Source: a virus. Taken from it: a stretch of 27,002 bases of DNA. Where the stretch lies: positions 1-27,002 of IMG/VR virus record IMGVR_UViG_3300025313_000106; one strand, given 5' to 3'. The notes beneath the pieces were generated by a model. It had not been told where the DNA came from and did not search any database. It saw only the letters and a list, made by a program, of their open reading frames with translations. Of the stretch, positions 12,043 through 27,002 are shown one piece after another. Every line of letters starts with the position of its first letter. Within the stretch, counting starts at the first letter, position 1. The position numbers and the translations under genes are program-made.

Positions 12043-12227
12043 ATTATATATTCCCACTCTACGTTGGCCAGCGCATCGCTCAGCGCGCTCACACGCTTGG
12101 CTATGGCGGATAGTTCGGCAATAAAATCTTCGTCATAGGCGCGATCGTAGCGGTACTGGTCATAAAGTTTCACGGCATCGTAAAGCGCCTCTTCGGCGGC
12201 GTCTAGGGTGTTCGTTAATTTGCTCAT
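12039..12227 (-). CDS. Small acidic helical protein
   Basis: 62 residues from ATG 12227, preceded by AGAGG and overlapping the polymerase stop by ATGA. It reads MSKLTNTLDAAEEALYDAVK and continues as charged, acidic, probably helical sequence ending VEWEYII. No known motif. It sits between DNA polymerase and the Fe-S nuclease and is coupled to both, so it may be a replication accessory protein; function unknown. Confidence 0.6.
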   Translation of the reverse strand: MSKLTNTLDAAEEALYDAVKLYDQYRYDRAYDEDFIAELSAIAKRVSALSDALANVEWEYII

Positions 12228-13990
12228 TTTGTTGCCTCTGAATAGTTGTTGCCTGATTTGACCGATACGCGCATCGGGACATCCACGCGCAGCGCGTTTG
12301 CTGCGGCAAGATAGGCCGACTCCCATAACTGACCCGGCGCTGCGCTGATACTGATTTCATCGTGCACCGTGCCTAGAATAGTCGCGCCGCTGGCGTGTAA
12401 ATGGATCAACATTTCCTTTGTCTGGTCGGCCGCGCTCCCTTGAATCAGCGTGTTGATTGCCTTGTATTCATACGAGCGGGCGCCGCCCTCCGGCGAGAGT
12501 GTCGGGGGCTCGCAGAACATCACGCGACCCCCCACGGTGCGGACTTTGCCCCCGCGCTGAAACCGCGTTTTGCAGGTCTGAATGAGGGTCCCCAAGTCAG
12601 GAAATTCACTCAGAATACGGCCCTTCATCCGCTTGGCATCCACAATATCAATGCCAAGACTTTCCGCCAGCCGCGCTTGACCCATGGCATACAGAAGCCC
12701 CAGGAAAATCGTTTTCGCCATTTTCCGCGTGGTGCCCGCGCCGACAATCTCCGTAACGAAAACGTACGGATCTAACTCGGGGTCCGCGTTGTAGGCGGCC
12801 AGGAGCCTGCCATTCTCAAAATGCGCCGCCAGCCGTGGTTCTTGGCTCATCAAGTCGCCCGTTACCCACGCTGCCCCCAGTTCAGGCAGCAAATAACTGC
12901 GCAAGCTGGGAATTTCCGGGTAGCCATCGGGCGGCAACACGTCGAAGCGGGTTGGTACGTTTTGCAGATTGGGGCCTGAACTGCTCAGCCGCCCCGTACG
13001 GGTGCCGAAGCCGGCCGCATTGCGCGTCTGGTTGTATTTCGGGTAAATGCGCCCCGCACCCCGCGCAGCGATTTCCAACCAGGGCACCATAAACGTGCGT
13101 GTGACGGTAGACAGCGCGCCGCGATACCGTAATAGTTGTAACAAGTCGGTGTCCGCCACTGCCGCTGCGAGACTCTGCTTGCCCACACTCTGCGCACCTT
13201 TGGCGGTCAGCAGCAGTTTACTTGGGTCCGCGTGCCCGCCGCAGGTCAGAGCCTCCAGCAGTTCCGCGTCGCTGTCCAAATTGACGACCCCTAGACGGTC
13301 CATGAGCGCGGTTTCAGCACGGGCAAGCGCCTCTGCGCTGGTGTTCAGGTCAGCGGACAACCGCTCCACATCGAGCCGGACGCCGCGCGCCTCCACTTCC
13401 ATGAGGACGGGTAGTAGTTTGCGCTCCCGGTCGTAGGCGTTGGACATCCCCAATTCGAGGACCTCCGCGTGGAGGCGGGCAAAGAGTCCCAGCGTGCGGG
13501 CTACGTCACCCATGGCATAGGGGGCGACGAGATCAGCGGGGGCGCAACATATATAGGCCCCCGCTTGCTTGCGGGTACGGCAGGCCGCGACATTCTCCAC
13601 AATCCAATCCGTCAGCAGGTCGCGTTCCTCCGGGGCCAGGTGTAGATAATGCTCTGCCAGTGGTTTCAATCCCAGAGAGGTGGCGTTGGGGTCCAACAGA
13701 TAAGCCAGAAACATGGTGTCATGCAGCTTATCCCAGGCCGGGCACGGGAGATCTAACCAATATTTCGCTACGGCTAGGTCGAACTTGGCATTGTGCATCA
13801 CCAAATCGCCACCCCATAGGCGGGAGAGTGCCTGTCTTGCCTCTGACAGCGTGCAGTTATTCCCTGTGGGGTGCCCCCACGCCATGTAAATTGGTTCACT
13901 GTCGGGTGAGGAAAGCGCAACACCTACCGGCCGGGGCGGTGTTGCGCTCGTATCGTCGATGGCCTCGGTTTCAAAGTCGATGGCGTACAT
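12224..13990 (-). CDS. Family A DNA polymerase with 3'-5' exonuclease domain
   Basis: 588 residues from ATG 13990 (TAATG with the preceding gene). Exonuclease motifs: Exo I DFETE (Asp5, Glu7), Exo II HNAKFDL (Asp71), Exo III YAMGD (Tyr158, Asp162). Polymerase motifs: TGRLSSSGPNLQNVP (332-346), motif A GDLMSQEPRLAAHF (catalytic Asp379), motif B RKMAKTIFLGLLYAMG (Lys426, Tyr434), motif C TVHDEI (His543, Asp544, Glu545). There is no 5'-3' exonuclease domain, as is usual for phage replicative enzymes. It is shorter than E. coli Pol I or T7 gp5 but has all catalytic residues. It should be the replicative polymerase, working with the primase-helicase upstream in the operon. Confidence 0.97.
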   Translation of the reverse strand: MYAIDFETEAIDDTSATPPRPVGVALSSPDSEPIYMAWGHPTGNNCTLSEARQALSRLWGGDLVMHNAKFDLAVAKYWLDLPCPAWDKLHDTMFLAYLLDPNATSLGLKPLAEHYLHLAPEERDLLTDWIVENVAACRTRKQAGAYICCAPADLVAPYAMGDVARTLGLFARLHAEVLELGMSNAYDRERKLLPVLMEVEARGVRLDVERLSADLNTSAEALARAETALMDRLGVVNLDSDAELLEALTCGGHADPSKLLLTAKGAQSVGKQSLAAAVADTDLLQLLRYRGALSTVTRTFMVPWLEIAARGAGRIYPKYNQTRNAAGFGTRTGRLSSSGPNLQNVPTRFDVLPPDGYPEIPSLRSYLLPELGAAWVTGDLMSQEPRLAAHFENGRLLAAYNADPELDPYVFVTEIVGAGTTRKMAKTIFLGLLYAMGQARLAESLGIDIVDAKRMKGRILSEFPDLGTLIQTCKTRFQRGGKVRTVGGRVMFCEPPTLSPEGGARSYEYKAINTLIQGSAADQTKEMLIHLHASGATILGTVHDEISISAAPGQLWESAYLAAANALRVDVPMRVSVKSGNNYSEATK

Positions 13991-15410: not shown

Positions 15411-15427
15411 AATGGCATATACTTCAA
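15398..15427 (-). promoter_or_regulatory. Candidate sigma70-like promoter for the replication genes
   Basis: On the minus strand TTGAAG (15427-15422) is followed after 18 bases by TATAAC (15403-15398), and the 15334 gene starts about 60 bases downstream. The -35 element overlaps the end of the primase gene. The -10 is embedded in the perfect dyad AAGTTAGTATAACTT (15396-15410, 6-base arms, 3-base centre), which also occurs at the head of the YD array, so the site could be both promoter and operator. A weaker TTTACT-N17-TACACT pair lies just downstream in the same gap. Confidence 0.55.
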
Positions 15428-17433
15428 AATTTGTCTTTTTTGATGTTGCCGCCCTCCATGTGCCGGAAAACGTCTAGGCGGTCGGCGGTTTCCCACGGGG
15501 AGTTTTTGCGACAAAAAAGCGTGTATTGCCGTTTGTTGATGTAGAACCGACCGCGATCACCCTGCGGGTCCTTCAAGCGGGTGAAAAAATTCTCTGCCCG
15601 TAGTGCGATCGCACCTTGCCCGTACCTAGCACCCCGCAATTCGAGCATCTGGCTGAATTGCGCGCTGCTGAACAACTCCCCCGCTGCATCATCCTCGCTT
15701 AATGAGATGAAAAACTCGTCCAGCGCATCCCGCGACGCCTCGATAATGTCGCGCTTCGCGCCGGACAGGGGCGGTCTGCCGAAGGGGTCGAACTGACTCA
15801 AATCTCGGGTCAAATACCAGTGCAGGAGGTTGTCATACCCGCCACCACGCAGCCATGTGAAGAGCGTCCCCACGTCGGACTTTGCGTCCGAGTTCTTGAA
15901 CCGGAAGACAGCGGCGCGGCGGTCGTCGGCGTCCAGTAACCCCGGAATGTCTTTATTACTGGTGAAGCACAGCGTAGCGACGTTGGGCACATCGTACCCA
16001 CGCACCCCTTTGGGGTTCATATATAATGTTTTGGAATCAGCGCGGTTTTTAATATACTCCTTGTTTGATTTTGTCAGGTCCTCCGACGCTTCATTTATGA
16101 TAAGGAGAATGGCGCCCTGGTCGCGTGTGAAATGGCTCGACCGTAAGTCGTGCATGGACGCCCGGACGACATTTTCCGGGTGCATCAGCCCACCAATAAC
16201 CTCAAAAAGGGACGATTTTCCCGTCCCGTGGTGCGTGGATTGTAGGAGGTAATAAGAGGGTATCCGCTCACCAATATGTTGGATCAGGTACGCTGTGCGG
16301 TCGTGGAACCACGCGATCTCCGCGTCGGTAGCGTCGAAGCGCGATTTTATGTGCCTCAACCACGGAGCTACGTCCCCCGCGCGCGGCACATAGCGCCAAC
16401 CGCGCCATAAATTCGCATGGCCGGAGTCGGTGATTTGACTCGGATCAGCCCCGTCAAAGGTGAACCCGCGAAGCTCCAAACGCTTCGGGTGGTGCAGCCA
16501 CACATCGAACATCGGAACGACCTTGACCCGGCCCTGCTCATCAATCTTGGTTATTTTACGCGGCATGTAGAGCAATTTCGCCTGCTCATGGCTGTACGTC
16601 GCGCGGGTTTCCAAATGATAAAAGCTCGCGGAGTCGCGCATGAAAGCAATCTCCGCATTAAGCGCCAGAGGACTGCACTCCGTCGGGGGGATGTCGGCGG
16701 TGGCGATTAGTCGCTGCCAGACGGGCAATTTTACCCGCGCCTCTGGGGTCTCCGGCCACGGCCCAGCCAGTAGGTAGTCGTCGATGCCGACTTTCCGCGT
16801 TTTATCGCTCACAACATCGTAGAGATTCAGACTCAAACAAGTAGAACCCGCCTTCCCGTGTAACAGGCTCATCAGATCGCCCATTGCGCGTGAGACCGGC
16901 GCTTTCCAGGGCATATCGCCGCCATCGAAGTCGAACAGAATGTAAACCAGTCGATTCTGACACAGCGTTTTTAATGTGGGGTGCAGAGAACCATCGACCC
17001 AATAGGAATTCACGCCACCGAGCGCGATGACCAAATACTCGGACGTACCGAGGAACTTTTGCAGGACAAGCGCTTTTTTCTCACCCTCCACCAGAATAAT
17101 TTTGTACTCCGTGCGGAGGGCGGCGCGCCACTGTACAAATTTGTTGAGATAAATTAAACAGCCCGTTTCACGGGGCTGTTGGTATTTCCCGCGCCCGACA
17201 TGATTCAGCAGGCGGATGCGGGAAATGCCCAGCGGCTGGGAGTCCATATCAAAATAAGGGATCTGAACGCCGGATTCGTGACCCTCAGATTCCCAGCCCA
17301 GTGCCAGGGCGACCGCGCTGGGCGATAGCAAGCGCAGCCCGTGTAAATCAATATCGGCCTGCGTCAGACGCAGCGCGGTGACAAAAGTTTCCCAGGAGTC
17401 CAATGGACTTTGTATGAACGAATGCACTGTCAT
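15424..17433 (-). CDS. Bifunctional primase-helicase (DUF3854 plus DUF5906-like)
   Basis: 669 residues from ATG 17433; a TTG three codons earlier is possible and neither has a strong ribosome site. The N-terminal third is DUF3854/TOPRIM-like: IILVEGEKKALVLQ with Glu116, and ILFDFDGGD with Asp168 and Asp170, the metal-binding residues of primases. The C-terminal half is the DUF5906-type helicase ATPase: STHHGTGKSSLFEVIGG with Walker A GTGKSS at 403-408, LLIINEASED as the Walker B region, then CFTSNKDIPGLLDADDRR as a sensor region. The pair would prime and unwind DNA at the phage fork. The gene follows the YD array after 19 bases and ends at the promoter gap before 15334. Confidence 0.9.
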   Translation of the reverse strand: MTVHSFIQSPLDSWETFVTALRLTQADIDLHGLRLLSPSAVALALGWESEGHESGVQIPYFDMDSQPLGISRIRLLNHVGRGKYQQPRETGCLIYLNKFVQWRAALRTEYKIILVEGEKKALVLQKFLGTSEYLVIALGGVNSYWVDGSLHPTLKTLCQNRLVYILFDFDGGDMPWKAPVSRAMGDLMSLLHGKAGSTCLSLNLYDVVSDKTRKVGIDDYLLAGPWPETPEARVKLPVWQRLIATADIPPTECSPLALNAEIAFMRDSASFYHLETRATYSHEQAKLLYMPRKITKIDEQGRVKVVPMFDVWLHHPKRLELRGFTFDGADPSQITDSGHANLWRGWRYVPRAGDVAPWLRHIKSRFDATDAEIAWFHDRTAYLIQHIGERIPSYYLLQSTHHGTGKSSLFEVIGGLMHPENVVRASMHDLRSSHFTRDQGAILLIINEASEDLTKSNKEYIKNRADSKTLYMNPKGVRGYDVPNVATLCFTSNKDIPGLLDADDRRAAVFRFKNSDAKSDVGTLFTWLRGGGYDNLLHWYLTRDLSQFDPFGRPPLSGAKRDIIEASRDALDEFFISLSEDDAAGELFSSAQFSQMLELRGARYGQGAIALRAENFFTRLKDPQGDRGRFYINKRQYTLFCRKNSPWETADRLDVFRHMEGGNIKKDKF

Positions 17434-17452
17434 GGGGGTCAACCTGTGGGGA

Positions 17453-17797
17453 TTAATTGTTCTTATGCGGGGCGGGTTCCGTGTAGTTGTCCAGATAGCT
17501 CAGGATAGTACCCTGCTCATCGCGCGTGTACTCGTACCAATAGCCCGTATTATCCCGGTAGCTCAAGATATTACCCCGCTCGTCACGAGTGTACTCGTAC
17601 CAGCAGCCCAGGCAGTCTATGTAGCTCTGGATAATCCCCTGTTCATCGCGGATGTACTCGTACCAATAGTCACTACTGTCCAGGTAGCTCAGCACCAGAT
17701 CGGCATCATCGTAGGTGCGTTCGTACCACTCGTCCGCCTCGTCCCGGCTGGCGATCACTTCGCCGGTTTTGCCGTTGTAGATCGTGGTGGTGGTCAT
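17453..17797 (-). CDS. YD-repeat small protein, last member of the array
   Basis: 114 residues from ATG 17797 (ATGA overlap; AGGAG eight bases upstream). It starts MTTTTIYNGKTGEVIASRDE, the same N-terminal type as the gene at 18418-18624. About five 21-residue units of the type GYWYEYTRDERGNILSYRDN follow, ending EPAPHKNN. The repeats resemble the YD/Rhs repeats of large secreted toxins and adhesins, but there is no signal peptide, Rhs core motif or toxin domain. The units use Ser/Tyr/Leu variants (ILSYLD) less like the others, so this copy is the most diverged. It precedes the primase-helicase gene by 19 bases. Function unknown. Confidence 0.8.
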   Translation of the reverse strand: MTTTTIYNGKTGEVIASRDEADEWYERTYDDADLVLSYLDSSDYWYEYIRDEQGIIQSYIDCLGCWYEYTRDERGNILSYRDNTGYWYEYTRDEQGTILSYLDNYTEPAPHKNN

Positions 17798-18099
17798 GCT
17801 TTGGGCTCCTGGGTGGGGGCGGGTCGTCCGCTAGAGAATACGGGCCGGGCGCTGCCTAGAAGCCCCTCCCTGACGGCCTCCGCCTGGAGCGCATCCGCCT
17901 CTAAATCGGTGGCACCTACATATTCCAGCGCACATTCAAAACGCTCCAGATCTCCGCGTCGGAACTGATAGGCGTGCGCTCCACCCTGTTTCGGGGTTTC
18001 TCGGATGAGTTGCAGAGGAAGCCCCTCCACCGCGACCAGGGCAACTCGGCCTACAACGATGCGGATTTGAGAGGGGCTGCGGTAGATCTCGGTGTTCAT
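17794..18099 (-). CDS. Hypothetical protein within the YD array
   Basis: 101 residues from ATG 18099, preceded by GAGGAT and overlapping the previous stop by ATGA. It contains no YD units: it reads MNTEIYRSPSQIRIVVGRVA, then YQFRRGDLERFECALEYVGA and a charged helix. The C-terminal tail PTQEPKA* carries the AGGAG ribosome site for the next gene, as the YQEQQA* tails of the YD genes do. A 19-base stretch of this tail also recurs in the leader of the first YD gene near 21064-21082, which suggests shared ancestry of the junctions. Family not recognised. Confidence 0.65.
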   Translation of the reverse strand: MNTEIYRSPSQIRIVVGRVALVAVEGLPLQLIRETPKQGGAHAYQFRRGDLERFECALEYVGATDLEADALQAEAVREGLLGSARPVFSSGRPAPTQEPKA

Positions 18100-18377
18100 G
18101 GCTGATCCTCATCGTCATCTACGATTTCTACGGTTTCAACATCCAGACAGGCCACACTAAGAACTAAACACTCGGTGCGCCCGCTCAAGGCCCGCCGGGC
18201 CGGGACTTCGATTGTGGCCGCGTTGCCCTCGCGCATCTGAAATTCGGCATCTTTCGCCCAGGCGGCGAGCTCTCCATATGAGAAAAACTCGGGCGGGTTG
18301 TTCAATGTCTCGCTGAGAAACCGGGCGATTTCAGTGAGTCCGATCTCGTTTACCGTGCCAATTGCGTAGGTGGTCAT
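18096..18377 (-). CDS. Hypothetical acidic protein within the YD array
   Basis: 93 residues from ATG 18377 with GAGG upstream and ATGA overlaps on both sides. It reads MTTYAIGTVNEIGLTEIARF, with an alpha/beta composition and a strongly acidic end (EIVDDDEDQP). It has no YD unit, signal peptide or recognised motif. Together with the next gene it interrupts the YD series, so the pair may have been inserted between repeat genes or may work with them. Confidence 0.62.
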   Translation of the reverse strand: MTTYAIGTVNEIGLTEIARFLSETLNNPPEFFSYGELAAWAKDAEFQMREGNAATIEVPARRALSGRTECLVLSVACLDVETVEIVDDDEDQP

Positions 18378-18421
18378 TCTGTAGCCTCGCCGGTGGTGCT
18401 GTAGATCGTGGTCGTGGTCAT
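18374..18421 (-). pseudogene. 15-codon collapsed YD gene
   Basis: A complete mini-frame MTTTTIYSTTGEATE with ATGA overlaps on both sides. Its first seven residues equal the start of the 17453-17797 gene (MTTTTIY), and its last eight match the tail STTDEATE that the gene upstream of 18624 would have without its frameshift. All repeat units are missing, as expected from an in-frame recombination between the two ends of a YD gene. It may survive only as a ribosome relay: its last codons hold the GAGG site for the gene at 18377. Confidence 0.6.
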
Positions 18422-18624
18422 GGGGTGGCCTCGTCGGTGGTGTTGTCGCGGCGGGTCAGGATGTTGCCTGCGGCATCGTAGGTGCGTTCGTAGGAAAAGC
18501 CTTTACTGTCCCGGTAGGTGAGCTCACGCCCCGCCTCGTCGCGGGTGCACTCGTGCCACTCGTCCACCTCATCCCGGCTGGCTATCACCTCGCCGGTTTT
18601 GTCGTTGTAAATCGTGGTGGTCAT
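18418..18624 (-). CDS. Short YD-repeat protein
   Basis: 68 residues from ATG 18624, preceded by GAGGCTACAG; the longer upstream frame is out-of-register repeat sequence. It starts MTTTIYNDKTGEVIASRDE (N-terminal type shared with 17453-17797), then has two YD units, TRDEAGRELTYRDSKGFSYE and TYDAAGNILTRRDN, and ends TTDEATP. It is the smallest intact member of the array. The ending is a variant of the STTDEATE tail and supplies the ribosome site for the following mini-frame. Function unknown. Confidence 0.72.
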   Translation of the reverse strand: MTTTIYNDKTGEVIASRDEVDEWHECTRDEAGRELTYRDSKGFSYERTYDAAGNILTRRDNTTDEATP

Positions 18625-18931
18625 TCTGTAGCCTCGTCTGTGGTGCTGTCCCGGTAGGTGAACACGCGGCCGGTAGGTGAACACGCGGCCGGTAGGTGAA
18701 CACGCGGCCGTCAGCGTCGTAGGCGTACGCGTAGGAAAAGCCCGTGCTGTCCCGGTAGGTCAGCGCGTTCCCGTCCGCGTCGTAGGTGCGTTCGTAGGAA
18801 AAGCCAGTGCTGTCATGGTAGGTCAGCTCGTTGCCATGCTCGTCGTTGGTGATTTCGTAGGATACGCCGTCACCTGCGCGGCCCCTATAGGTCAGCACGT
18901 TGCCATGCTCGTCGTAGGTGCGTTCGCCCAT
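18569..18931 (-). CDS. YD-repeat protein frameshifted by a 19-bp triplication
   Basis: 120 residues from ATG 18931, which has GAGGAG about eight bases upstream; a TTG two codons earlier would overlap the previous stop. It starts MGERTYDEHGNVLTYRG and has four YD units (for example TYDADGNALTYRDSTGFSY). At 18707-18651 a 19-base sequence is present three times; 38 extra bases shift the frame, so the protein ends in unrelated sequence (RPRVHLPAACSPTG...) running over the start of the next gene. With one copy the frame would read RDSTTDEATE* and stop with an ATGA overlap at 18624. The reading frame may therefore be on/off switchable or simply damaged. Confidence 0.68.
   Translation of the reverse strand: MGERTYDEHGNVLTYRGRAGDGVSYEITNDEHGNELTYHDSTGFSYERTYDADGNALTYRDSTGFSYAYAYDADGRVFTYRPRVHLPAACSPTGTAPQTRLQNDHHDLQRQNRRGDSQPG
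18651..18707. repeat. 19-bp tandem repeat, three perfect copies
   Basis: The unit CCGGTAGGTGAACACGCGG occurs at 18651-18669, 18670-18688 and 18689-18707, inside a YD gene. Since 19 is not a multiple of three, each change in copy number changes the reading frame; one or four copies keep the gene in frame with its expected tail. Confidence 0.95.
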
Positions 18932-18933
18932 GG

Positions 18934-19329
18934 TCAAATCTCCTCGTGAGTTAGTGAATCGCCGCGCTGTACGCCAGTGCTGTTCCTATAGGTCAACTCA
19001 TTGCCGGCGGCGTCGCGGGTGAATTCGGATGAATAGTCATCGCTGTCGCAGTAGGTGAGCATGTTGCCATGCTCGTCGTAGGTGTATTCGTAGAAAAAGT
19101 CAGTGCTGTCGCGATAGGTGAGCACGTTCCCATCCGCGTCGCGGGTGTACGCGTAGGAAAAGCCAGTGCTGTCCCGGTAGGTGAGCTCGCGGCCGTCGCC
19201 GTCGTAGGTACTTTCGCGATAGGTCAGCTCGTTCCCGGCAGCGTCATAGGTGTGATCGCACCAATAGCCGTCGCCGTCCCGATAGGTTAAGACTCGACCA
19301 CACTCGTCATAGGTAATTACCGGATTCAT
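18934..19329 (-). CDS. YD-repeat small protein
   Basis: 131 residues from ATG 19329 (ATGA overlap, GGAGCAACAAGC upstream). It starts MNPVITYDECGRVLTYRD, the N-terminal type shared with the gene at 19326-19799, the two being nearly identical over ~70 bases here. About six YD units follow; the second is short (NELTYRESTYDGDGRELTY), lacking about seven residues, a sign of an internal deletion. The C terminus (GVQRGDSLTHEEI) differs from the YQEQQA tail and carries GAGGAG for the next gene. No signal peptide or toxin domain. Confidence 0.8.
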   Translation of the reverse strand: MNPVITYDECGRVLTYRDGDGYWCDHTYDAAGNELTYRESTYDGDGRELTYRDSTGFSYAYTRDADGNVLTYRDSTDFFYEYTYDEHGNMLTYCDSDDYSSEFTRDAAGNELTYRNSTGVQRGDSLTHEEI

Positions 19330-19799
19330 GCTTGTTGCTCCTGGTAGTCACGGCGAATGCCGTTGCTGTTCCGGTAGGTCAGCTCGTTCCCAGCAGCGTC
19401 GTATGTGCGCTCGTAGCCGTTGCCGTTGCCGGTCCTAAAGGACAACTCCCGGCCGGCATCGTCGTAGGTATATTCGCGCCAGGTCTCGGCGCTGTTGCGA
19501 AAGGTCAGTTCGTTTCCGTTGGCGTCGTAGCTGCGCTCGCACCAATAGCCGTCGCTGTTCCGAAAGGTCAGCTCGTTCCCAGCAGCGTCGTAGGTGTGCT
19601 CGTACCAATGGCCACTACTGTCTGCGTAGGTTAGTACGCGCCCGGCAGCGTCGTAGGTGTGCTCGCACCCGTGGCCGCTACTGTCCGCGTAGGTCAGCTC
19701 GTGGCCCCAAACGTCATAGGTGTGATCGCACCAATAGCCATCACTGTCGCGATAGGTTAAGACTCGACCACACTCGTCATAGGTAATTACCGGATTCAT
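19326..19799 (-). CDS. YD-repeat small protein
   Basis: 157 residues from ATG 19799, chosen because it has GGAGCAGAAAGC upstream, overlaps the previous stop by ATGA, and gives the same start (MNPVITYDECGRVLTYRDSD) as the next paralogue. Seven units of ~21 residues follow, such as TYDAAGRVLTYADSSGHWYE and TYDAAGNELTFRNSDGYWCE, several with an extra cysteine. It ends IRRDYQEQQA*, whose codons contain the AGGAG site and ATGA start of the next gene. The protein is acidic and Tyr/Trp-rich, with no secretion signal. Function unknown. Confidence 0.82.
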   Translation of the reverse strand: MNPVITYDECGRVLTYRDSDGYWCDHTYDVWGHELTYADSSGHGCEHTYDAAGRVLTYADSSGHWYEHTYDAAGNELTFRNSDGYWCERSYDANGNELTFRNSAETWREYTYDDAGRELSFRTGNGNGYERTYDAAGNELTYRNSNGIRRDYQEQQA

Positions 19800-20080
19800 G
19801 CTTTCTGCTCCGGGTAGCCACGGCATTCGCCACGGCTGTTCCGGTAGGTCAGTTCGCGCCCCTGCTCATCGCGGGTGTACTCGTGCTCATAGCCGCTACT
19901 GTCCCGGTAGGTCAGCTCGTTCCCGGCAGCGTCGTAGGTGTGCTCATACCAGTAGTCGGCGCTGGTCCGGTAGGTCAGTTCGTTCCCGTCAGCGTCGTAG
20001 CTGCGCTCGGACCAGTAACCATCACTGTCGCGATAGGTCAGGATGTTCCCCAGCGCGTCGCGGGTTGTTTTTATGCTCAT
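19796..20080 (-). CDS. YD-repeat small protein
   Basis: 94 residues from ATG 20080 (ATGA overlap, GGAGCAACAAGC upstream). It starts MSIKTTRDALGNILTYRDSD, a start unlike the other types, then has four units including SYDADGNELTYRTSADYWYE and TYDAAGNELTYRDSSGYEHE. The end is ECRGYPEQKA*, a variant of the YQEQQA tail with the same embedded ribosome site. Acidic and without signal peptide. Confidence 0.8.
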   Translation of the reverse strand: MSIKTTRDALGNILTYRDSDGYWSERSYDADGNELTYRTSADYWYEHTYDAAGNELTYRDSSGYEHEYTRDEQGRELTYRNSRGECRGYPEQKA

Positions 20081-20676
20081 GCTTGTTGCTCCTGGTAGCC
20101 ACGGCGAATGCCGGCGCTGTCGCGATAGATTAGTGCGCGCCCCTGCTCATCGCGGGTGCGTTCGTGCTCATAGCCGCCACTGTCCCGAAAGGTTAGGGAC
20201 CGGCCGTCAGCGTCGTAGGTGCGCTCACGCCAGTAACCATCACTCTCTTGGTAAGTCAGCTCCCGCCCGGCAGCGTCGTAGGTGTGCTCACGCCAGTAAC
20301 CATCATTTTCTTGGTAAGTTAGCTCCCGCCCGTTGGCGTCGTAGGTGTGCTCGTACCAATGGCCGGTGGCGTCCCGAAAGGTTAGGGACCGCCCGTCAGC
20401 GTCGTAGGTGCGCTCACGCCAGTAACCATCACTCTCTTGGTAAGTCAGCTCGTTCCCGTTGGCGTCGTAGGTGTGCTCACGCCCGTAACCACCACTCTCT
20501 TGGTAAGTCAGCTCCCGCCCGTTGGCGTCGTAGGTGCGCTCGTACCAATGGCCGTTGGCGTCCCGAAAGGTTAGGGACCGCCCGTCAGCGTCGTAGGTGT
20601 GCTCGTACCAATGGCCAGTCCCAGGACGGGCGACTAGCTCGTTGCCGCCTTCGTCGTAGATCTTAATCGTGCTCAT
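20077..20676 (-). CDS. Largest YD-repeat protein of the array
   Basis: 199 residues from ATG 20676 (ATGA overlap, GGAGCAACAAGC upstream). It starts MSTIKIYDEGGNELVARP, as does the first gene of the array. Nine units follow in a higher-order order of three: one with RSLTFRD, one with RELTYQE, one with ELTYQESDGYWRER, the triplet repeated. At DNA level landmarks recur exactly 189 bases apart (20182, 20371, 20560), so segments of three 63-bp units have duplicated recently. It ends IRRGYQEQQA*. No Rhs core or toxin domain. Function unknown. Confidence 0.84.
   Translation of the reverse strand: MSTIKIYDEGGNELVARPGTGHWYEHTYDADGRSLTFRDANGHWYERTYDANGRELTYQESGGYGREHTYDANGNELTYQESDGYWRERTYDADGRSLTFRDATGHWYEHTYDANGRELTYQENDGYWREHTYDAAGRELTYQESDGYWRERTYDADGRSLTFRDSGGYEHERTRDEQGRALIYRDSAGIRRGYQEQQA
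20182..20640. repeat. Higher-order 189-bp repeats (3 x 63 bp)
   Basis: Within the largest YD gene the landmark GTCCCGAAAGGTTAGGGACC and its flank recur at 20182, 20371 and 20560, each 189 bases apart. The first two copies agree over roughly 78 bases with a single visible mismatch. This is a repeat of repeats, formed by duplication of three 63-bp units. Confidence 0.85.
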
Positions 20677-21056
20677 GCTTGTTGCTCCTGGTAGCCACGG
20701 CGAATGCCGTCACTGTCGCGATAGGTTAACTCACGGCCGTTGGCGTCGCGGGTGTACACGCGCCATGAATTGTTGTTGCCCTTGTAGGTCAGGATGTTCC
20801 CGAGTGCGTCGTAGGTGCACACGTAACGAGTGCCATTACTGTCGCGATAGGCGATGACGAGATCTTGCGCATTGTAGGTATGCACATGCCAAGCAAAACC
20901 CTGCGACTCGCAGGTGCATTCGCTCCAGGTGCCATCACTGTCCCGACTGGACAGCTCCATGCCCGCTGCGTCGTAAGTGCGTTCCTGCCAGTAACCCGTC
21001 TCCGGCCGGGCGACTAGCTCGTTGCCGCCTTCGTCGTAGATCTTAATCGTGCTCAT
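20673..21056 (-). CDS. YD-repeat protein, first gene of the array
   Basis: 127 residues from ATG 21056, chosen over an earlier in-frame start because AGGAGCAACAAGC precedes it and it matches the start of the next paralogue (MSTIKIYDEGGNELVARP). About five units follow, more diverged than elsewhere: one is disrupted (CTCESQGFAWHVHTYNAQDL), others intact (TRDANGRELTYRDSDGIRRG). It ends with the YQEQQA* tail. It lies ~90 bases downstream of the palindromic promoter element and so would be the first gene expressed in this early operon. Confidence 0.8.
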   Translation of the reverse strand: MSTIKIYDEGGNELVARPETGYWQERTYDAAGMELSSRDSDGTWSECTCESQGFAWHVHTYNAQDLVIAYRDSNGTRYVCTYDALGNILTYKGNNNSWRVYTRDANGRELTYRDSDGIRRGYQEQQA

Positions 21057-21084
21057 GCTTGTTGCTCCTGGGTGGGGGCGGGAC

Positions 21085-21126
21085 GCTGAGTGGGTGTGTG
21101 GAGAGGAGCATAACCACCCACTCAGC
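21085..21126. promoter_or_regulatory. Inverted repeat sharing the iteron core
   Basis: GCTGAGTGGGTG (21085-21096) and CACCCACTCAGC (21115-21126) are perfect 12-base inverted arms with an 18-base loop, in the transcribed leader of the YD array. The arms contain CCCACTCAGC, the core of the 15-bp iterons at 21876-21981. It could be an RNA hairpin or a paired binding site for the same protein as the iterons. Confidence 0.65.
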
Positions 21127-21143
21127 ATGGTGCAACTACTATT

Positions 21144-21158
21144 TAGTTATACTAACTA
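21144..21158 (-). promoter_or_regulatory. Palindromic promoter/operator element, copy 1
   Basis: On the minus strand TAGTTAGTATAACTA is a perfect dyad (arms TAGTTA/TAACTA) containing TATAAC at 21151-21146, in -10 position for the YD array. The 13-base core equals that at 15397-15409. No clear -35 hexamer lies 17-18 bases upstream, so an activator may be needed. Confidence 0.55.
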
Positions 21159-21181
21159 TATGCCTGACGCGAGGCGCGGGA

Positions 21182-21204
21182 ATATAGCGCGCGCGGCGCT
21201 ATAT
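21182..21204. promoter_or_regulatory. Dyad upstream of the array promoter
   Basis: ATATAGCGC, a GCGCG centre and GCGCTATAT form perfect 9-base arms. It lies ~30 bases upstream of the -10 element at 21146-21151, a position suitable for an activator or repressor site. The stem could also extrude as a cruciform. Confidence 0.5.
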
Positions 21205-21219
21205 AAGGAAGGGCTAGGG

Positions 21220-21261
21220 GTGGAATTGGATGGTGCGGGGGTGGAATTGGATGGTGCGGGG
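21220..21261. repeat. 21-bp direct repeat, two perfect copies
   Basis: The unit beginning GTGGAATTGGATGGTGC occurs at 21220-21240 and 21241-21261. It is noncoding as far as can be seen and lies upstream of the early promoter. Confidence 0.9.
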
Positions 21262-21307
21262 GTTCTGAGCGATGTTTAGCTAAGTGCCCGGAACGCCGTT
21301 CAAATGG

Positions 21308-21375
21308 GGCGGAAATGGGGGTATTGAGCGCCGTTTAATTGGGCGGAAATGGGGGTATTGAGCGCCGTTTAATTG
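21308..21375. repeat. 34-bp direct repeat, two perfect copies
   Basis: The unit begins GGCGGAAATGGGGGTATTGA and ends GCCGTTTAATTG; copies lie at 21308-21341 and 21342-21375. A degenerate third piece (GCCGTTCAAATGG) precedes them at about 21292-21305. Confidence 0.9.
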
Positions 21376-21386
21376 GGTCAAAATCC

Positions 21387-21440
21387 TTCCCCGGCTTTTT
21401 TGGAATTTGCCGGCGAGGGGGCCGGTTTTGAGCCGGGGAA
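21387..21440. repeat. Large dyad with nested hairpin
   Basis: TTCCCCGGCT (21387-21396) and AGCCGGGGAA (21431-21440) are perfect 10-base inverted arms. Between them CCGGC (21410-21414) and GCCGG (21421-21425) form an inner stem. No long T-run follows in either direction, so an intrinsic terminator is unlikely; an origin or protein-binding structure is more plausible. Confidence 0.6.
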
Positions 21441-21875
21441 TAGGAAAACATCGTTCATTCCCTGATTCCCTTCCCTGAGTGCACTTTTTGGAAATATTCT
21501 TGGTGCTTGGGTGGTCTCCCACGGGAGGTGGCGCGCCGGTCGGTGCCGGCGGGGGAACGGAGGGTGGGTTTTTTTATTTACGGTAGAATCAAGCACTTGG
21601 TGCTGCCTTTTCCCTACTCCCTTATTCCCTTATAAAATATATAATATATATAAAAAGAGGAAGTACGAAATAACACTACACATAAAAGAGTAGAAAAAGG
21701 GACGGATAGGAATTTACGTGGGGAACGGGAAGCGGGGGAACGGTGCGCTCCAACCGAACCCGTAAAAAACACCATTCAGCCCACCCGTTTAGTGCAGCGC
21801 ACAATGAGCAGTGTTTTGGGCGATTTGGCCCCAATATTCGGCCACTCATCCGACCACTAGACCGAGGTTGGCCCA

Positions 21876-21981
21876 CCCCACTCAGCGCGACCCCACTCAG
21901 CGCGACCCCACTCAGCGCGACCCCACTCAGCGCGACCCCCCTCAGCGCGACCCCACTCAGCGCGACCCCCCCTCAGCGCGA
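21876..21981. repeat. Iteron-like array, seven 15-16-bp units
   Basis: CCCCACTCAGCGCGA repeats in tandem from 21876: four perfect units, a CCCCCCTCAGCGCGA variant (21936-21950), another perfect unit and a 16-base variant, then a decaying partial copy to ~21998. The period is 1.4 helical turns. Such arrays bind replication initiators or regulators in many replicons. Open frames through it (PLSAT or GRAEW repeats) only reflect the period being divisible by three. Confidence 0.9.
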
Positions 21982-22002
21982 CCCCCCTCAACCTGCTCAG
22001 CG

Positions 22003-22054
22003 CCCAGCGTAATGCCCAGAACACGCAACCCACCCAGCGTAATGCCCAGAACAC
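22003..22054. repeat. 22-bp direct repeat, two copies 30 bp apart
   Basis: CCCAGCGTAATGCCCAGAAC plus AC occurs at 22003-22024 and 22033-22054. It immediately follows the iteron array and is probably part of the same control region. Confidence 0.9.
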
Positions 22055-22122
22055 AGCACTATGACCCTGAGATGCCCCTCTAAGCCCAAAGCGCTACGTG
22101 CCCGGTACTAGGGTAGTGGGTA

Positions 22123-22185
22123 GGGGTCATTTACTGCGTACTCGGCGTTTGGCGGGTACGCGCCTGAGGTCCGAGATCTGACCCC
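22123..22185. repeat. Nested inverted repeats
   Basis: GGGGTCA (22123-22129) pairs with TGACCCC (22179-22185), and within it GCGTAC (22136-22141) pairs with GTACGC (22156-22161). A strong hairpin follows directly. This is a possible structured leader or binding site; no T-run is present. Confidence 0.45.
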
Positions 22186-22215
22186 CCACCCCCCTGCGAA
22201 AAAACAGGGGGGTGG
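22186..22215. repeat. GC-rich hairpin with A-rich loop
   Basis: CCACCCCCCTG (22186-22196) and CAGGGGGGTGG (22205-22215) are perfect 11-base arms around CGAAAAAA. No U-tract follows on either strand. It could be a transcription pause or attenuation structure, a single-strand hairpin promoter of the type known in N4-like phages, or an origin element; nothing here distinguishes these. Confidence 0.7.
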
Positions 22216-22322
22216 TATACAGGTACTCCCCCCTGCCAAGTACAAAGTTCTCAACTCCCCACCCATAGTATTACTACCATAAGCCCCGAGTACTAAGCCC
22301 CCATCGCCCCACGCTTAGATCT

Positions 22323-22353
22323 TTGCCATCGCCCCCACCGGTTGTGGTATGCT
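22323..22353 (+). promoter_or_regulatory. Candidate plus-strand promoter for packaging genes
   Basis: TTGCCA (22323-22328) and TATGCT (22348-22353) are 19 bases apart, and the -10 has an upstream TGG giving an extended -10. The first plus-strand gene starts ~120 bases downstream at 22475. Spacing is longer than ideal, so confidence is modest. Confidence 0.4.
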
Positions 22354-22474
22354 GTCGATAACTTGCCCCTTATTGTGTGAGGCTTTGTGCGTGGCCAACT
22401 TTCCGCATCTCTCCCCCCCACCCTCCGACGGGCCGAGCCCCGCCCGACCCACCCGCATTTATTCGCGGCGGGGC

Positions 22475-22756
22475 ATGGAGCAAGCCTTTCTAGAGACGTT
22501 TGAGCTGGTCGGGGGTATCTCCCGGTTAACGTTGTGGGCCAACGAGGAAAAGAATTACCACGAATTCCTGAAGTTGCTGACGAAGTTGTTCCCGAAGGAA
22601 GTGCAGAAGAAGATAGAGGGTCGGGTGGTGCACATCACGACGGCAGTGCCGGAATCGCCCCTGGATGGTGCGCCGAGAGTCGAGCGTGTGGCGTACGCCG
22701 TGGATGACTTTGACGCATTTGACGCCAGCGCGACGGATGCGGAGTATGTGGAGTGA
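22475..22756 (+). CDS. Probable small terminase subunit
   Basis: 93 residues from ATG 22475, preceded by GGCGGGG; the open frame extends upstream, but that part is proline-rich noncoding-like sequence. It starts MEQAFLETFELVGGISRLTL and continues WANEEKNYHEFLKLLTKLFP, a helical pattern typical of small terminase or terminase-associated proteins encoded just ahead of podovirus large terminases. The C terminus is acidic (DDFDAFDASATDAEYVE). It overlaps the large terminase gene by GTGA. It would recognise genome DNA and help load the packaging motor. Confidence 0.72.
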   Translation: MEQAFLETFELVGGISRLTLWANEEKNYHEFLKLLTKLFPKEVQKKIEGRVVHITTAVPESPLDGAPRVERVAYAVDDFDAFDASATDAEYVE

Positions 22757-24090
22757 GTGCGGACAATCTGGTGCTGCACGACTACGTGCCCCGTAAATGG
22801 TTCGTGGCCTTCCACCAGCGCCACCAGCGCTTTGCTTGCCTCGTCTGTTCGCGACGTACGGGGAAGACAGTCGCCTGTGTCAATGACATGGTGGCGAAAG
22901 CGTTGCGCTCGGGTAAGGAGCGCCCGTTCTTCGCGTTCGTCGCCCCGTTTTACGCGCAGGCCAAGGCCATCGCGTGGGCCTACCTGAAGCAGGCCGTGGC
23001 TAACTTTTCGGAGGAGGTGCGCGAGAGCGAGTTGTCGGTGAAGTTGCCGAACGGGGCCATTATTCGGTTGTTCGGGGCCGACAACCCGGACAGTTTGCGC
23101 GGGCTGTACTTTGACGGGGTGGTCTTCGACGAGATGGGGGACATTCCGGGGACGGTGTTCACTTCGATCGTACTGCCGGCGCTGTTGGACCGAGAGGGTT
23201 GGGTGGTGTTCATCGGCACCCCCAAGGGGCGGAACAGCTTCTACAGCCTGTATCAGCGGTCGTTGCACGAAGCAACGTGGTTCTCGTTGCGCCTGACCTG
23301 CCACGACACGACCGCGCTAAGTCCGGCGGCGTTGCAACTGGCGCGGGATGAGATGGACGGGGACGAGTTTCAGCAGGAGTTTGAGTGCTCGTTCGACGCG
23401 GCGGTGCGCGGGAGCTATTACGGTAAGCTTTTGAACCAGCACGCCGACCACGTGCGGCCCATCGCCTGGGACCCGGCCTACTTGGTGCAAGTGGCGATGG
23501 ACATCGGGCACACGGACGACTGCGCCGCGTGGTTTTGGCAGGAAATCGCGGGCGAGCGGCGGTATTTGGAGGCGTTTTCGATCCCCGGCCTGGACGTGGC
23601 GGACGTGGTGGCCATCCTGCGGGGGTTTCCGTACCAGTACGCACCCATCGGCCTGCCGCATGACGCGAAGGCGAAGAGCTTCCAGACGGGGAAATCCGTG
23701 ATGGAGCAGTTCCACGCCCTGGACGTGCGCTACCAGAAAGTACCGTCACTGAGCTTTCAGGACGGGGTACAGGCGGTACGGAAAATCTTGCCCATAAGTT
23801 ATTTTAATAGCGAGTCGCCGGGCGTGATGGCGAGTTATGACCATTTGAAGTTGTATTCGAGGGAATATGATGAGAAAAACGAAGTATTTCGGGCATCGCC
23901 CAAGCACGATAAGCACAGTCACGCCGCCGACGGGTTTCGGTACAGCGCCATCATGGGGCGGGGTGCCGGGAGCGGTGAGAAGGGTCGCGTGGTGACGTTG
24001 CGCCCAGGCGCGCGGCGCGGCGCGGCGTTGAATTTGGAGTCGCTCTACGCCGACCGGAGTCAGCGCGTGCGCTCGGACAGGATCTCGTGA
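22753..24090 (+). CDS. Terminase large subunit
   Basis: 445 residues from GTG 22753. ATPase motifs: CSRRTGKT at 32-39 (Walker A-like), VVFDE at 123-127 (Walker B) and FIGTPKGRNSFY (coupling motif). Nuclease acidic residues: VAMDIGHTDD (Asp250), GLPHDAKAK (Asp304) and HSHAADGFRY (Asp393), the expected RNase H-like trio. The length is normal for a large terminase. It translocates DNA into the procapsid through the portal and cuts the concatemer. It lies 52 bases before the portal gene. Confidence 0.96.
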   Translation: MSADNLVLHDYVPRKWFVAFHQRHQRFACLVCSRRTGKTVACVNDMVAKALRSGKERPFFAFVAPFYAQAKAIAWAYLKQAVANFSEEVRESELSVKLPNGAIIRLFGADNPDSLRGLYFDGVVFDEMGDIPGTVFTSIVLPALLDREGWVVFIGTPKGRNSFYSLYQRSLHEATWFSLRLTCHDTTALSPAALQLARDEMDGDEFQQEFECSFDAAVRGSYYGKLLNQHADHVRPIAWDPAYLVQVAMDIGHTDDCAAWFWQEIAGERRYLEAFSIPGLDVADVVAILRGFPYQYAPIGLPHDAKAKSFQTGKSVMEQFHALDVRYQKVPSLSFQDGVQAVRKILPISYFNSESPGVMASYDHLKLYSREYDEKNEVFRASPKHDKHSHAADGFRYSAIMGRGAGSGEKGRVVTLRPGARRGAALNLESLYADRSQRVRSDRIS

Positions 24091-24142
24091 CGCTGCCCTC
24101 GTTCAAGCCAGGTAGCATAACAAAAAGAGGAGCACAAACCTG

Positions 24143-26131
24143 ATGCATCCAGCAGGTGCGGATTGGGGCACGGAGATTGCCAAAGCCGAGAAGTTCATGC
24201 AGGGCTCCTGGAAGCGTGGCCGGCAGATTTACGCGCGGTATGCCGACGACCGGGATGCGGACACCTACGCCAGCGCCGTCGGGCTGCGGCGGGTCAACAT
24301 TTTCTTTTCCAACACGAACACCATAGCGGCGAGTCTGTACAACAGCTTACCGCGTCCGGACGTGTCGCGGTTGCATAAGGGGGAGACGGAGGATGAGGCC
24401 TCGCGGGTGGCGGCGCTGATTTTACAGCGTGCGTTGACGTACGAAGTGCACTGCGCCCCGTGGTTCGACGCGGCGATAAAGTCGGCGATTCTGGACCGCT
24501 TGGTGCCGGGTGTGGGGCAACTTTGGGTTCGGTTCCAAGGGGCGACGGAGGTGGCGCCCGAGCAAGTGGCGGTTGACACTGTGTACTGGGAAGATTTCCT
24601 GTACCAGCCCGCGCGGACCTGGGTCGGGGTTAACTGGGTCGGTCGCCGGTTGCACTTGACGATGGCTGAGGTTAGGTCCCGCTACGGCGAGGAGGGGGAG
24701 GCGGTGCTCTCCACTACGCCCGAGCGCGACGCCATGACGCCGAAGGAGATAGAGCAGGGTACTTACTGCGTCTATGAGATTTGGGACAGGACGACCAAGA
24801 AAGTAATTCATTGGGCAAAGGGTGCTGAGAAGCCTTTACTGGAGCTGGAAGACCCACTCCGCCTGACGAATTTTTTCCCGTGCCCAGCTCCATTGATTGC
24901 CAACACGACGACGGTTAAGTATTTGCCGGTCCCGGACTTTCACATCGCGGAAGACCAGTACATCGTCATGGATACGTTGATGGCGCGCATCAACCTAATT
25001 ATCGAATCCGTGAAGGTGGCCGGCGTATACGATGCGGGTAGCCCGGAGATTGGCCGCATGTTGCAGGGCTGCGAGAACAAGCTCATCCCGGTGGATAATT
25101 GGGCCATGTTTGCCGAAAAGGGGGGTGCGAAGGGGACCATTGATTGGTTTCCGGTGGAGCACATCGTCCCGGTGCTGCAACAGCTTCAGGCGGCGTATGA
25201 ATTTACCAAGCAGACACTCTATGAAGTGACGGGAATGTCGGACATCTTGCGCGGAGCAAGCAATCCGTATGAGACCGCTGCGGCGCAGGGCATCAAGGCG
25301 CAATTTGCCAGTGTCCGCATGAATCAGTATCAGCGGGACGTGGCGACCTTTGTTCGGGATACCTTGCGCATCGTGGGTGAGCTGGTGTGTCAACTGTACA
25401 GTGACCAGAAGCTGCAATTGGTCGTGGGCGATTTGCCCCAACCGGACCTGCAATTCATACCACAAGCCGTGGCGATCCTGCGCAATGATTTCTTGTTGAA
25501 GTACAACGTGGATATCGGGGCGGACAGCCTGACGCAGGCGGATTGGGCGATGGAGAAGAGTCAGCGACTCGAATTCATGCAAGCGATGAGTCAATTCCTC
25601 AATTCGGCGGTGCCGGCCATCCGGGATGCGCCCGAGCTAGGCCCGTTATTGTTGCAGATGGTGAAATTCTCCATCGCCGGGTTCAAGGGGGCGGCTGAGA
25701 TGGAGGGCTGGGTAGACCAGCAATTGGATGCTTTGTTGAAGGCATCCCAGCAGCCACCACAGCCGCCCCCGCCGAGTCCAGAGGCGCAACAGGCGCAAAT
25801 GGAATTGCAGATGAGTCAGCAGAAGATGCAAATGGAAATGCAGAAGCTGCAAATGGAAATGCAGCAGGACGCGCAGGACGCGCAGCTACGGCAACAGGAG
25901 AGCGTGGGTAAATTGGCGGTCTCCGAGCAGGAGATGCGCCAATCATCGGAAGCGCAGCAACAAGAGCTGCAATACAAGCAGCAAAAGGCGAATTTGGAGC
26001 TTGAATATCTGGCGGCCAAGTATCAACTAGAGCTGGAAAAGGCGCAGGTTGAGCTACAGATAGCCAAGGAAAAGGGCGCGCTCTCTCTGGGCGCGACAGT
26101 CATGGATCTAAAAGGTGAGTTCAATGGTTGA
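24143..26131 (+). CDS. Portal protein
   Basis: 662 residues from ATG 24143, with AGAGGAG upstream. The core follows the podovirus portal pattern: RRVNIFFSNTNTIAASLYNS near residues 49-68, VYWEDFLYQPARTW, IAEDQYIVMDTLMARINLII, and YEVTGMSDILRGASNPYETAAAQGIKAQF split by family-typical loops. Residues ~535-640 are a long Gln/Met-rich coiled coil (MELQMSQQKMQMEMQKLQME), as in the tail of many portal proteins of this group. It forms the dodecameric ring at one capsid vertex. It overlaps the next gene by eight bases. Confidence 0.93.
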   Translation: MHPAGADWGTEIAKAEKFMQGSWKRGRQIYARYADDRDADTYASAVGLRRVNIFFSNTNTIAASLYNSLPRPDVSRLHKGETEDEASRVAALILQRALTYEVHCAPWFDAAIKSAILDRLVPGVGQLWVRFQGATEVAPEQVAVDTVYWEDFLYQPARTWVGVNWVGRRLHLTMAEVRSRYGEEGEAVLSTTPERDAMTPKEIEQGTYCVYEIWDRTTKKVIHWAKGAEKPLLELEDPLRLTNFFPCPAPLIANTTTVKYLPVPDFHIAEDQYIVMDTLMARINLIIESVKVAGVYDAGSPEIGRMLQGCENKLIPVDNWAMFAEKGGAKGTIDWFPVEHIVPVLQQLQAAYEFTKQTLYEVTGMSDILRGASNPYETAAAQGIKAQFASVRMNQYQRDVATFVRDTLRIVGELVCQLYSDQKLQLVVGDLPQPDLQFIPQAVAILRNDFLLKYNVDIGADSLTQADWAMEKSQRLEFMQAMSQFLNSAVPAIRDAPELGPLLLQMVKFSIAGFKGAAEMEGWVDQQLDALLKASQQPPQPPPPSPEAQQAQMELQMSQQKMQMEMQKLQMEMQQDAQDAQLRQQESVGKLAVSEQEMRQSSEAQQQELQYKQQKANLELEYLAAKYQLELEKAQVELQIAKEKGALSLGATVMDLKGEFNG

Positions 26132-26288
26132 AGACCTGAAATATAAGCTGTCCATTGCCGAATTACAGATTGTGCTCGACGCCCTCGCCGAGCAACCCTT
26201 CAAGAAGGTACATGAGGTCATTGCAACTTTACTTTCTCAGCACCGCACCCTAACAGAGGCCCAGAATGGAAATTCAATACCCGGATAA
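26124..26288 (+). CDS. 54-residue hypothetical protein after portal
   Basis: ATG 26124 lies inside the end of the portal gene. It encodes MVEDLKYKLSIAEL, then VLDALAEQPFKKVHEVIATL and a short tail. Small proteins with this helical pattern (a start of the L-x-x-A-E type, then 'ALAEQPFK.V..VI') are common immediately after portal or head genes in podoviruses. Function unknown. It overlaps the following gene by 23 bases. Confidence 0.6.
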   Translation: MVEDLKYKLSIAELQIVLDALAEQPFKKVHEVIATLLSQHRTLTEAQNGNSIPG

Positions 26289-26448
26289 CGCGACGGGGCA
26301 TTATTCCCGCCCGACGCTGCGCGACGTTTTCCCCGAGCCCGTACCCGAGCCCGTACCCGAGCCCGTACCCGAGCCCGTACCCGAGGAAGTGGTTACGGGG
26401 TCCGGGCCCAAGCCGCGCAAACGCAACACGCCGAAGGATGGGGCATAA
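26266..26448 (+). CDS. 60-residue protein with an EPVP repeat
   Basis: ATG 26266, overlapping the end of the preceding gene. The protein has a short start (MEIQYPDNATGHYSRPTLRD), then four exact EPVP units, then a basic end (GPKPRKRNTPKDGA). The Pro/Glu/Val repeat would form an extended rigid spacer, like a TonB-type stalk in miniature. No known domain. It could be a head-assembly linker or a DNA-contacting peptide; that is a guess. Confidence 0.6.
   Translation: MEIQYPDNATGHYSRPTLRDVFPEPVPEPVPEPVPEPVPEEVVTGSGPKPRKRNTPKDGA
26335..26382. repeat. 12-bp tandem repeat, four perfect copies
   Basis: GAGCCCGTACCC occurs four times in a row and encodes the EPVP repeat. Copy-number changes would keep the frame and alter only the length of the proline-rich spacer. 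Confidence 0.95.
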
Positions 26449-26450
26449 GG

Positions 26451-26861
26451 GTGCCGACCTACGATGCGATGTGCCATGCCTGCCATTTCCGGACGACCTA
26501 TGTCCGCCCGGTAGCGCAGTGTGAGGAGGTGCCGACTTGTCCAATCTGCGAGATGTCGATGGCGAAAGTCATCCTCTCCGCACCGGCGGCGTATGTGACG
26601 GGCAGTGAGTTCAGAGCGTTCCGCTCTTGCTTGGATGGGACACCTATTACGTCGCCCGCGACGTTGGCGGAGCATAATAGGCGAAATAACGTAGTCAATC
26701 TCAATGAAGGTTACAGCGACGAGGATATAAAGAATTTCTCGAATCGAGATTTCACGATAGCGCCAGACAAAGAAGAAATAAAACGCGATACCTTGGCAGC
26801 AATTGATGACTGCAAGCAAGGTTACAAGCCCCAAAGAGTGCACGAGGAAACCCTACCATGA
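26451..26861 (+). CDS. FmdB-like zinc-ribbon protein
   Basis: 136 residues from GTG 26451. The N terminus PTYDAMCHACHFRTTYVRPV has Cys8/Cys11 and is followed by TCPICE with Cys30/Cys33, a single zinc ribbon like that of FmdB-type regulatory proteins and of many phage head-region proteins. The rest is polar and contains a short acidic helix (EGYSDEDIKNF). The 3' half is AT-rich compared with its neighbours. It overlaps the next gene by ATGA. Role unknown; zinc-ribbon proteins at this position may aid capsid assembly. Confidence 0.72.
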   Translation: MPTYDAMCHACHFRTTYVRPVAQCEEVPTCPICEMSMAKVILSAPAAYVTGSEFRAFRSCLDGTPITSPATLAEHNRRNNVVNLNEGYSDEDIKNFSNRDFTIAPDKEEIKRDTLAAIDDCKQGYKPQRVHEETLP

Positions 26862-27002
26862 AAGAAAACACGGGCGCCCAGGAAGAGACCAGTATTCACG
26901 AGGACATGACTTCCGTCATGCAGGAATTGACGGCGCAGATGCCGTCGGATGCGGGTGAGGTGGCGCCTGCGGCTCCTGCGGCGCTCAGTGCGACCGCCGA
27001 GC
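26858..27002 (+). CDS. Partial gene, possible scaffold or head-assembly protein
   Basis: Starts at ATG 26858 by ATGA overlap and is cut by the window end after 48 codons. The visible part MKENTGAQEETSIHEDMTSV and following is acidic, Ala/Pro/Glu-rich and probably disordered or helical, with no hydrophobic core. Such a start directly downstream of portal and small head genes would suit a scaffolding protein, but the family cannot be named from this fragment. Confidence 0.55.
   Translation, partial: MKENTGAQEETSIHEDMTSVMQELTAQMPSDAGEVAPAAPAALSATAE

Follow-up and report, generated by a model that had tools for sequence, protein, structure and literature searches.

A candidate two-part replication origin region, with an AT-rich core, short repeats and a separate tandem array, in a PolA-encoding phage

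In plasmid-type iteron origins, tandem direct repeats lie near an AT-rich stretch, and not all of these origins need DnaA. The satellite phage P4 uses the primase-helicase alpha protein as initiator at its ori/crr, with short repeated sites. Here we analyse a virus record of 27,002 bases (IMG/VR IMGVR_UViG_3300025313_000106; the whole stretch is called the window below), whose only long noncoding gap contains an AT-rich core, a cluster of the short word GGGAA/TTCCC and a 15-bp tandem array, and which we propose as a candidate origin region. The likeness to P4 would lie in a primase-helicase initiator, here the DUF3854/DUF5906 protein of the window, combined with short repeated sites. Origins of phage-inducible chromosomal islands (PICIs) consist of an AT-rich region flanked by two iteron sets and placed right after the 3' end of the primase/initiator gene (Fillol-Salom et al. 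2018; PMC6092414, which also mentions P4). In the plasmid pRN1, an essential element lies just downstream of the primase-helicase gene, with a 100-nt stem-loop that is needed (PMC4234260).

In several relatives of the window phage, the element described below lies directly 3' of the primase-helicase gene, which is the PICI position, and also just downstream of this gene as in pRN1. The pRN1 element is, however, a stem-loop and not a pair of flanking iteron sets. DNA folding computed for the array region of the window (21875–22060) gave z = −2.6, a modest value. PICIs differ in another way, the genomes studied here being those of free-standing tailed phages that encode PolA, terminase and portal themselves. 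Moreover, in the window the primase gene is not adjacent to the core and the inverted arrangement of repeats is not significant. The likeness drawn here is one of layout. No report of such a layout in this phage group was found in the open-licence literature searched.

The AT-rich core and the GGGAA/TTCCC cluster

The gap extends from 21280 to 22474 (1195 bp), the second largest noncoding stretch being 292 bp long, according to gene calls made with a simple script of our own. It separates leftward genes, namely the replication genes (SNF2 helicase, PolA and DUF3854/DUF5906 primase-helicase) and, next to the gap, genes for repeat proteins, from the rightward TerS, TerL and portal genes. An earlier note, made from the sequence alone, had placed an iteron-type origin here and described the gap as the only long noncoding one, located where early and late genes diverge, which agrees with our calls. 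The AT-rich stretch of about 70 bp that it reported is also found: positions 21628–21695 are 78% AT and include the 60 bp with the highest AT content of the window (21630–21689, 82%), a candidate DNA unwinding element that resembles the AT-rich melting region of PICI-type origins. This core is the most AT-rich among the nine genomes compared below. With the repeat-protein genes and the array excluded, the segment 21421–21740 around the core ranks top for short-word enrichment among 1108 segments of 320 bp, with ten copies of GGGAA/TTCCC; TTCCC is mostly found to the left of the core and GGGAA mostly to its right.

From these features and from the comparison with relatives, we infer that the gap is probably the replication origin region of the phage and that it has two parts, the core with its GGGAA/TTCCC sites as the origin proper and the array as a separate element. 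We give this reading a probability of about 0.5. The sequence features, their location and the repeated occurrence of the layout in relatives are computed results, while its identity as an origin, the primase-helicase as initiator, the GGGAA cluster as the window's form of the layout and any role of the array are inferred.

Recurrence of the layout among relatives

A portal search returned 80 loci, and seven phage contigs taken whole were compared with the window together with Stenotrophomonas phage BUCT555 (MW291508), making nine genomes in all. Three of the contigs (G001, G020 and G003) have PolA (about 45% identity), SNF2, TerS, TerL and portal in common with the window, and DUF5906 was present in all four primase-helicases scanned. 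BUCT555, the nearest cultured phage by portal (47.8% identical, with TerL 33% identical), also has a divergent gap by terS; its GGGGTC/GACCCC cluster (38890–39250 of L084) sits in a gap at the record end, apart from its AT-rich gap (37341–37400). The most AT-rich 60 bp of the genome falls in the noncoding region between the early genes and terS in seven of the nine genomes (the window, G001, G003, G020, G014, G011 and BUCT555), and the same region holds the second most AT-rich 60 bp in G013 and the third in G002.

In the gaps of the relatives, an AT-rich core lies between two inverted clusters of a short (6–9 bp), fast-changing motif, which touch the core on both sides. This candidate origin usually directly follows the gene for the DUF5906 primase-helicase or occupies the gap that precedes terS. 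For instance, four copies of GGTTACAG, the core and three copies of the CTGTAACC type directly follow the primase-helicase stop codon in L016 (core region 4155–4370). The cores listed behind the primase start 14–106 bp past the stop codon, most of them 50–106 bp. We evaluated this arrangement by setting the core by AT content alone and shuffling the flanks 500 times in search of an inverted motif (k = 6), in 16 regions. Eight whole records contributed nine of them, and the other seven loci (L016, L064, L018, L039, L020, L058 and L044) were added after an earlier scan had shown signal in most of these loci. The p-value was at most 0.004 in 11 of the 16 regions; G020 gave 0.016, then 0.023 and ≤0.01 in separate runs, reflecting shuffle noise.

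An unselected version of the test took all noncoding stretches of at least 250 bp on 123 contigs, retained from 172 sequences after 49 near-duplicates were dropped, at p ≤ 0.01. Inverted repeats around the most AT-rich 60 bp marked 13 of the 22 stretches that follow the primase and 13 of the 48 that precede terS. Of the remaining stretches, 1 of 50 was positive where the contig carries terL and 10 of 138 where no terL was seen; the primase group compared with these last two groups gives Fisher p = 4.5e-9. For direct repeats, the corresponding fractions were 9/22, 5/48, 2/50 and 5/138. Among the 63 contigs with a primase, 31 could be tested, with inverted repeats at p ≤ 0.01 in 14 of them and direct repeats in 10, the other 32, including the window, having less than 100 bp behind the primase or a primase at the contig end. 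Divergent promoters as the cause of the AT-rich core are disfavoured, because the neighbouring genes converge on the core in G001 and L016. We also rejected GGGGTC as an origin motif shared by all relatives, since this motif is found in G011, G013, G014, L018, L020 and L039, but G001, G003, G020 and G002 have no copy of it within 650 bp of the core.

Several of our results weigh against the proposed reading. The window itself fails the inverted-repeat test (p = 0.10 at k = 6 and 0.08 at k = 5, with nothing found at k = 7), as well as its degenerate version (p = 0.24), and both BUCT555 gaps and L058 fail the test at k = 6; the core and the GGGGTC cluster of BUCT555 sit, as mentioned, in different gaps. 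The window primase gene ends more than 6 kb from the core and only 89 bp lie behind it, unlike the adjacent gene of a PICI-type origin. Direct repeats are also in excess behind the primase, and their 9 matches in 22 imply that repeats of either orientation mark these places, the inverted order not being the whole signal. Finally, GC skew, a check suggested in the earlier note, tracks gene direction; it was dropped for this reason and provides no independent evidence for an origin.

The 15-bp array and its possible roles

The seven units of 15–16 bp and the split 22-bp repeat that the earlier note had seen to the right of the core are both exact. Seven identical copies of CTCAGCGCGA start at 21881, 21896, 21911, 21926, 21941, 21956 and 21972 (spacings 15, 15, 15, 15, 15 and 16), and Tandem Repeats Finder (TRF) delimits an array at 21875–21990 with period 15, 7.7 copies of the unit ACCCCACTCAGCGCG and a score of 202, far beyond the best scores of 55 in 1000 dinucleotide shuffles of the 1220-bp gap and 75 in 200 shuffles of the whole window. 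The two copies of the 22-bp repeat are located at 22003–22024 and 22033–22054. The centre of the array is about 270 bp from that of the AT core, and the array lies 485 bp from the start of terS. It is probably noncoding, because the 16-bp unit shifts the reading frame and no gene is picked there by the gene caller, and a coding array was ruled out on these grounds. The IMG/VR contig L002 is identical to window positions 21601–26985 over 5385 of 5385 bases, array included; it may represent the same virus population and thus backs the assembly more than a function. Two adjacent units of the array were found in no other viral contig and in no genome contig searched, and close single copies of the unit occur in L120 and L106.

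The array carries the word CTCAG, which fits CTNAG. In 13 relatives, the window being left out, CTNAG ranked first among 136 gapped words upstream of terS, with 71 occurrences seen for 35.7 expected and presence in 12 of the 13, the motif having been spotted by eye before this ranked test. In the window, G001, L112, L116 and L126, the densest CTNAG stretch of the record precedes the terS operon by 100–470 bp. It lies elsewhere in another 7 of the 14 contigs, and in L016 and L106 CTNAG clusters adjoin the origin core and not only terS, two facts that count against the proposed two-part reading. As a general origin motif, CTNAG was ruled out: beyond origin cores it occurs mainly in L016 and L106, and the control words GANTC and TCNGA are equally enriched. 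Because CTNAG tops the ranking upstream of terS, the array carries it and the densest stretches vary in place, the array looks like a recently amplified form of a CTNAG element that is common to the clade and distinct from the binding motif of the initiator.

The earlier note had instead taken the 15-bp units for the iterons of the initiator, forming a one-sided iteron origin with the AT-rich stretch. We consider this unlikely, even if it ranks ahead of the three alternatives that follow. It is true that tandem direct repeats adjoin an AT-rich region, as in plasmid-type iteron origins, with the two centres only some 270 bp apart; that L044 has a similarly lopsided array adjoining its AT core (one TGTAAC to the left and ten to the right), in a motif common to two-sided relatives; and that the array bears GACCCC, like the GGGGTC motif of the six relatives listed above. 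Nevertheless, the core of the window has a different short motif, GGGAA/TTCCC, its left side has no match to the array (p = 0.92), and CTNAG is also found before terS in relatives whose origin motifs are others, to which the array motif does not correspond. The 15-bp spacing, itself a difference from plasmid-type origins, does not correspond to an integral number of helical turns. The gap also contains no exact copy of the DnaA-box pattern TTATNCACA, with a single one-mismatch site at 22353, and no plasmid Rep gene was found among the window proteins scanned, which are part of its open reading frames. What we retain from the iteron-type proposal is the gap as a likely place for the origin, in line with the AT core and short repeats that relatives have in the homologous gap or behind the primase-helicase; the 15-bp units as iterons are not retained, given relatives' motifs of 6–9 bp, the window's own GGGAA/TTCCC and CTNAG by terS.

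Rather than an origin component, the array might be an operator or enhancer for late (or early) promoters, a doubtful option that we place behind the iterons. It would suit the position between divergent gene blocks, the frequent location of relatives' CTNAG sites within short palindromes and the sigma-54-like sites of the corresponding region in relatives, and it is at odds with the window gap, in which scans found neither a sigma-70-like nor a sigma-54-like site. A neutral minisatellite arising from copy slippage, with no function, is less probable still. The units are nearly identical, so that their expansion is recent, many other tandem repeats are present in the window, and array sequences are unrelated between most phages. 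On the other hand, CTNAG enrichment is common to relatives, and arrays are missing from the rest of the noncoding DNA: on a common set of 47 contigs, we counted 26 noncoding arrays in the 49.7 kb located within 3.5 kb upstream of terL and 0 in 47.7 kb elsewhere, where most stretches are short. When only stretches of at least 200 bp are considered, there are 21 arrays beside the terS operon (22.7 kb of such DNA), 10 further upstream (19.0 kb) and 1 elsewhere (20.8 kb). This concentration beside terS would also be expected of a packaging element made of TerS binding sites (pac), which we rank as the least probable of the four. Five contigs (L162, L016, L122, L106 and G001) have an array 180–440 bp from the terS operon with the origin core more than 1.4 kb away, and five of the eight other genomes (G001, G020, G013, G014 and G011) have end overlaps of 123–127 bases, as in circular assemblies, which fits headful or repeat-ended packaging. 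However, the densest CTNAG cluster of L016 and L106 is at the origin and not at terS, the arrays differ between phages although TerS is 43–52% identical, and the passages considered give no packaged ends for these phages (PMC8228603 and PMC10747016, which cite BUCT555, give no genome ends there). The possibility raised in the earlier note, an array that is a terminal repeat, found no support: these five genomes close as circles, and no end repeat was seen in the window record, which is a fragment, near relatives being about 41 kb long.

Gene neighbourhood and possible mode of action

On the minus strand, the family A DNA polymerase, already recognized in the earlier note and matching PF00476, is encoded at 12224–13990 and the primase-helicase (DUF3854 + DUF5906), the candidate initiator, at 15424–17442. 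VRR nuclease, Cas4-like exonuclease and DUF2815-like protein served as presumptive gene labels. Between the primase gene and the gap (17453–21128, minus strand) are adjoining genes built of 21-residue repeats (TYDA-GNELTYRDS-like), which form several near-paralogous copies, each containing 63-bp repeats at the DNA level; the one that was scanned matched the Pfam family RHS_repeat. On the plus strand, the terminase small subunit (22475–22756; 43–52% identity to six relatives) is followed by the terminase large subunit (22753–24090) and the portal protein (24143–26131). The TerS ATG is at 22475 and the conserved part already begins at 22454, the approximately 27 additional N-terminal residues of relatives being missing in frame (22349–22475).

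TRF also detected a 21-bp tandem repeat (21217–21263, 2.2 copies) and a 34-bp tandem repeat (21294–21377, 2.4 copies), and a 12-bp repeat, CCCGAGCCCGTA, is present in 4.5 perfect copies 3' of the portal gene (26332–26385). A perfect 11-bp hairpin with C and G runs and an 8-base loop, not followed by a T-run, lies between the array and terS (22186–22215). A promoter and terminator scan of 21050–22600 found none, an Rfam scan of the window matched no known RNA, BLASTN of the gap against phage records gave no match, and no relatives of the polymerase were found in genome contigs. In relatives, the early/late gap repeatedly contains near-perfect matches to the sigma-54-type promoter consensus, GG-N10-GC, some of them in tandem (G002 at 24638 and 24668, G020 at 20730, G013 at 18324, G011 at 20545, L022 at 210–247 and L026 at 417–726). 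The word GGTAGTACC or its complement recurs by small early genes in the gaps of G001, G002, G003 and G020, where it is operator-like.

In the reading of a two-part origin region, the origin proper would consist of the AT core and the short GGGAA/TTCCC sites on both sides. The primase-helicase, or a partner, would bind these sites, melt the core and load or prime there, and PolA would extend after priming. The array would be a separate set of recently amplified CTNAG sites between the origin and terS, with a phage DNA-binding protein as the most likely partner; it may provide auxiliary origin sites, act in packaging or regulation, or be a neutral expansion. The window is not classed here as a PICI-type origin, because its primase gene is not adjacent and one defining feature is thus missing; it probably works like one nevertheless. 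More generally, it seems an even bet that podoviruses with PolA and a DUF5906 primase-helicase, a widespread group, have a satellite-type (PICI-type) origin, in which an AT-rich core would lie between two inverted sets of short iterons with a motif that differs between phages (GGTTACA, GTGTAAT, GGGGTC, AATACCC, GGGGTGTG and, here, GGGAA). In the window this origin would be split from the primase gene and accompanied by the amplified CTNAG array.

The position of the origin in such PolA phages is not obvious from sequence, and a recognisable layout with a changing motif, in which inverted short repeats flank an AT core beside the primase-helicase gene, provides many testable predictions of origins that need no more than the sequence. 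It would also link the origins of phages to those of the satellites that parasitise them. Finally, it carries a warning, namely that even the most conspicuous tandem array close to an origin does not have to represent the binding sites of that origin.
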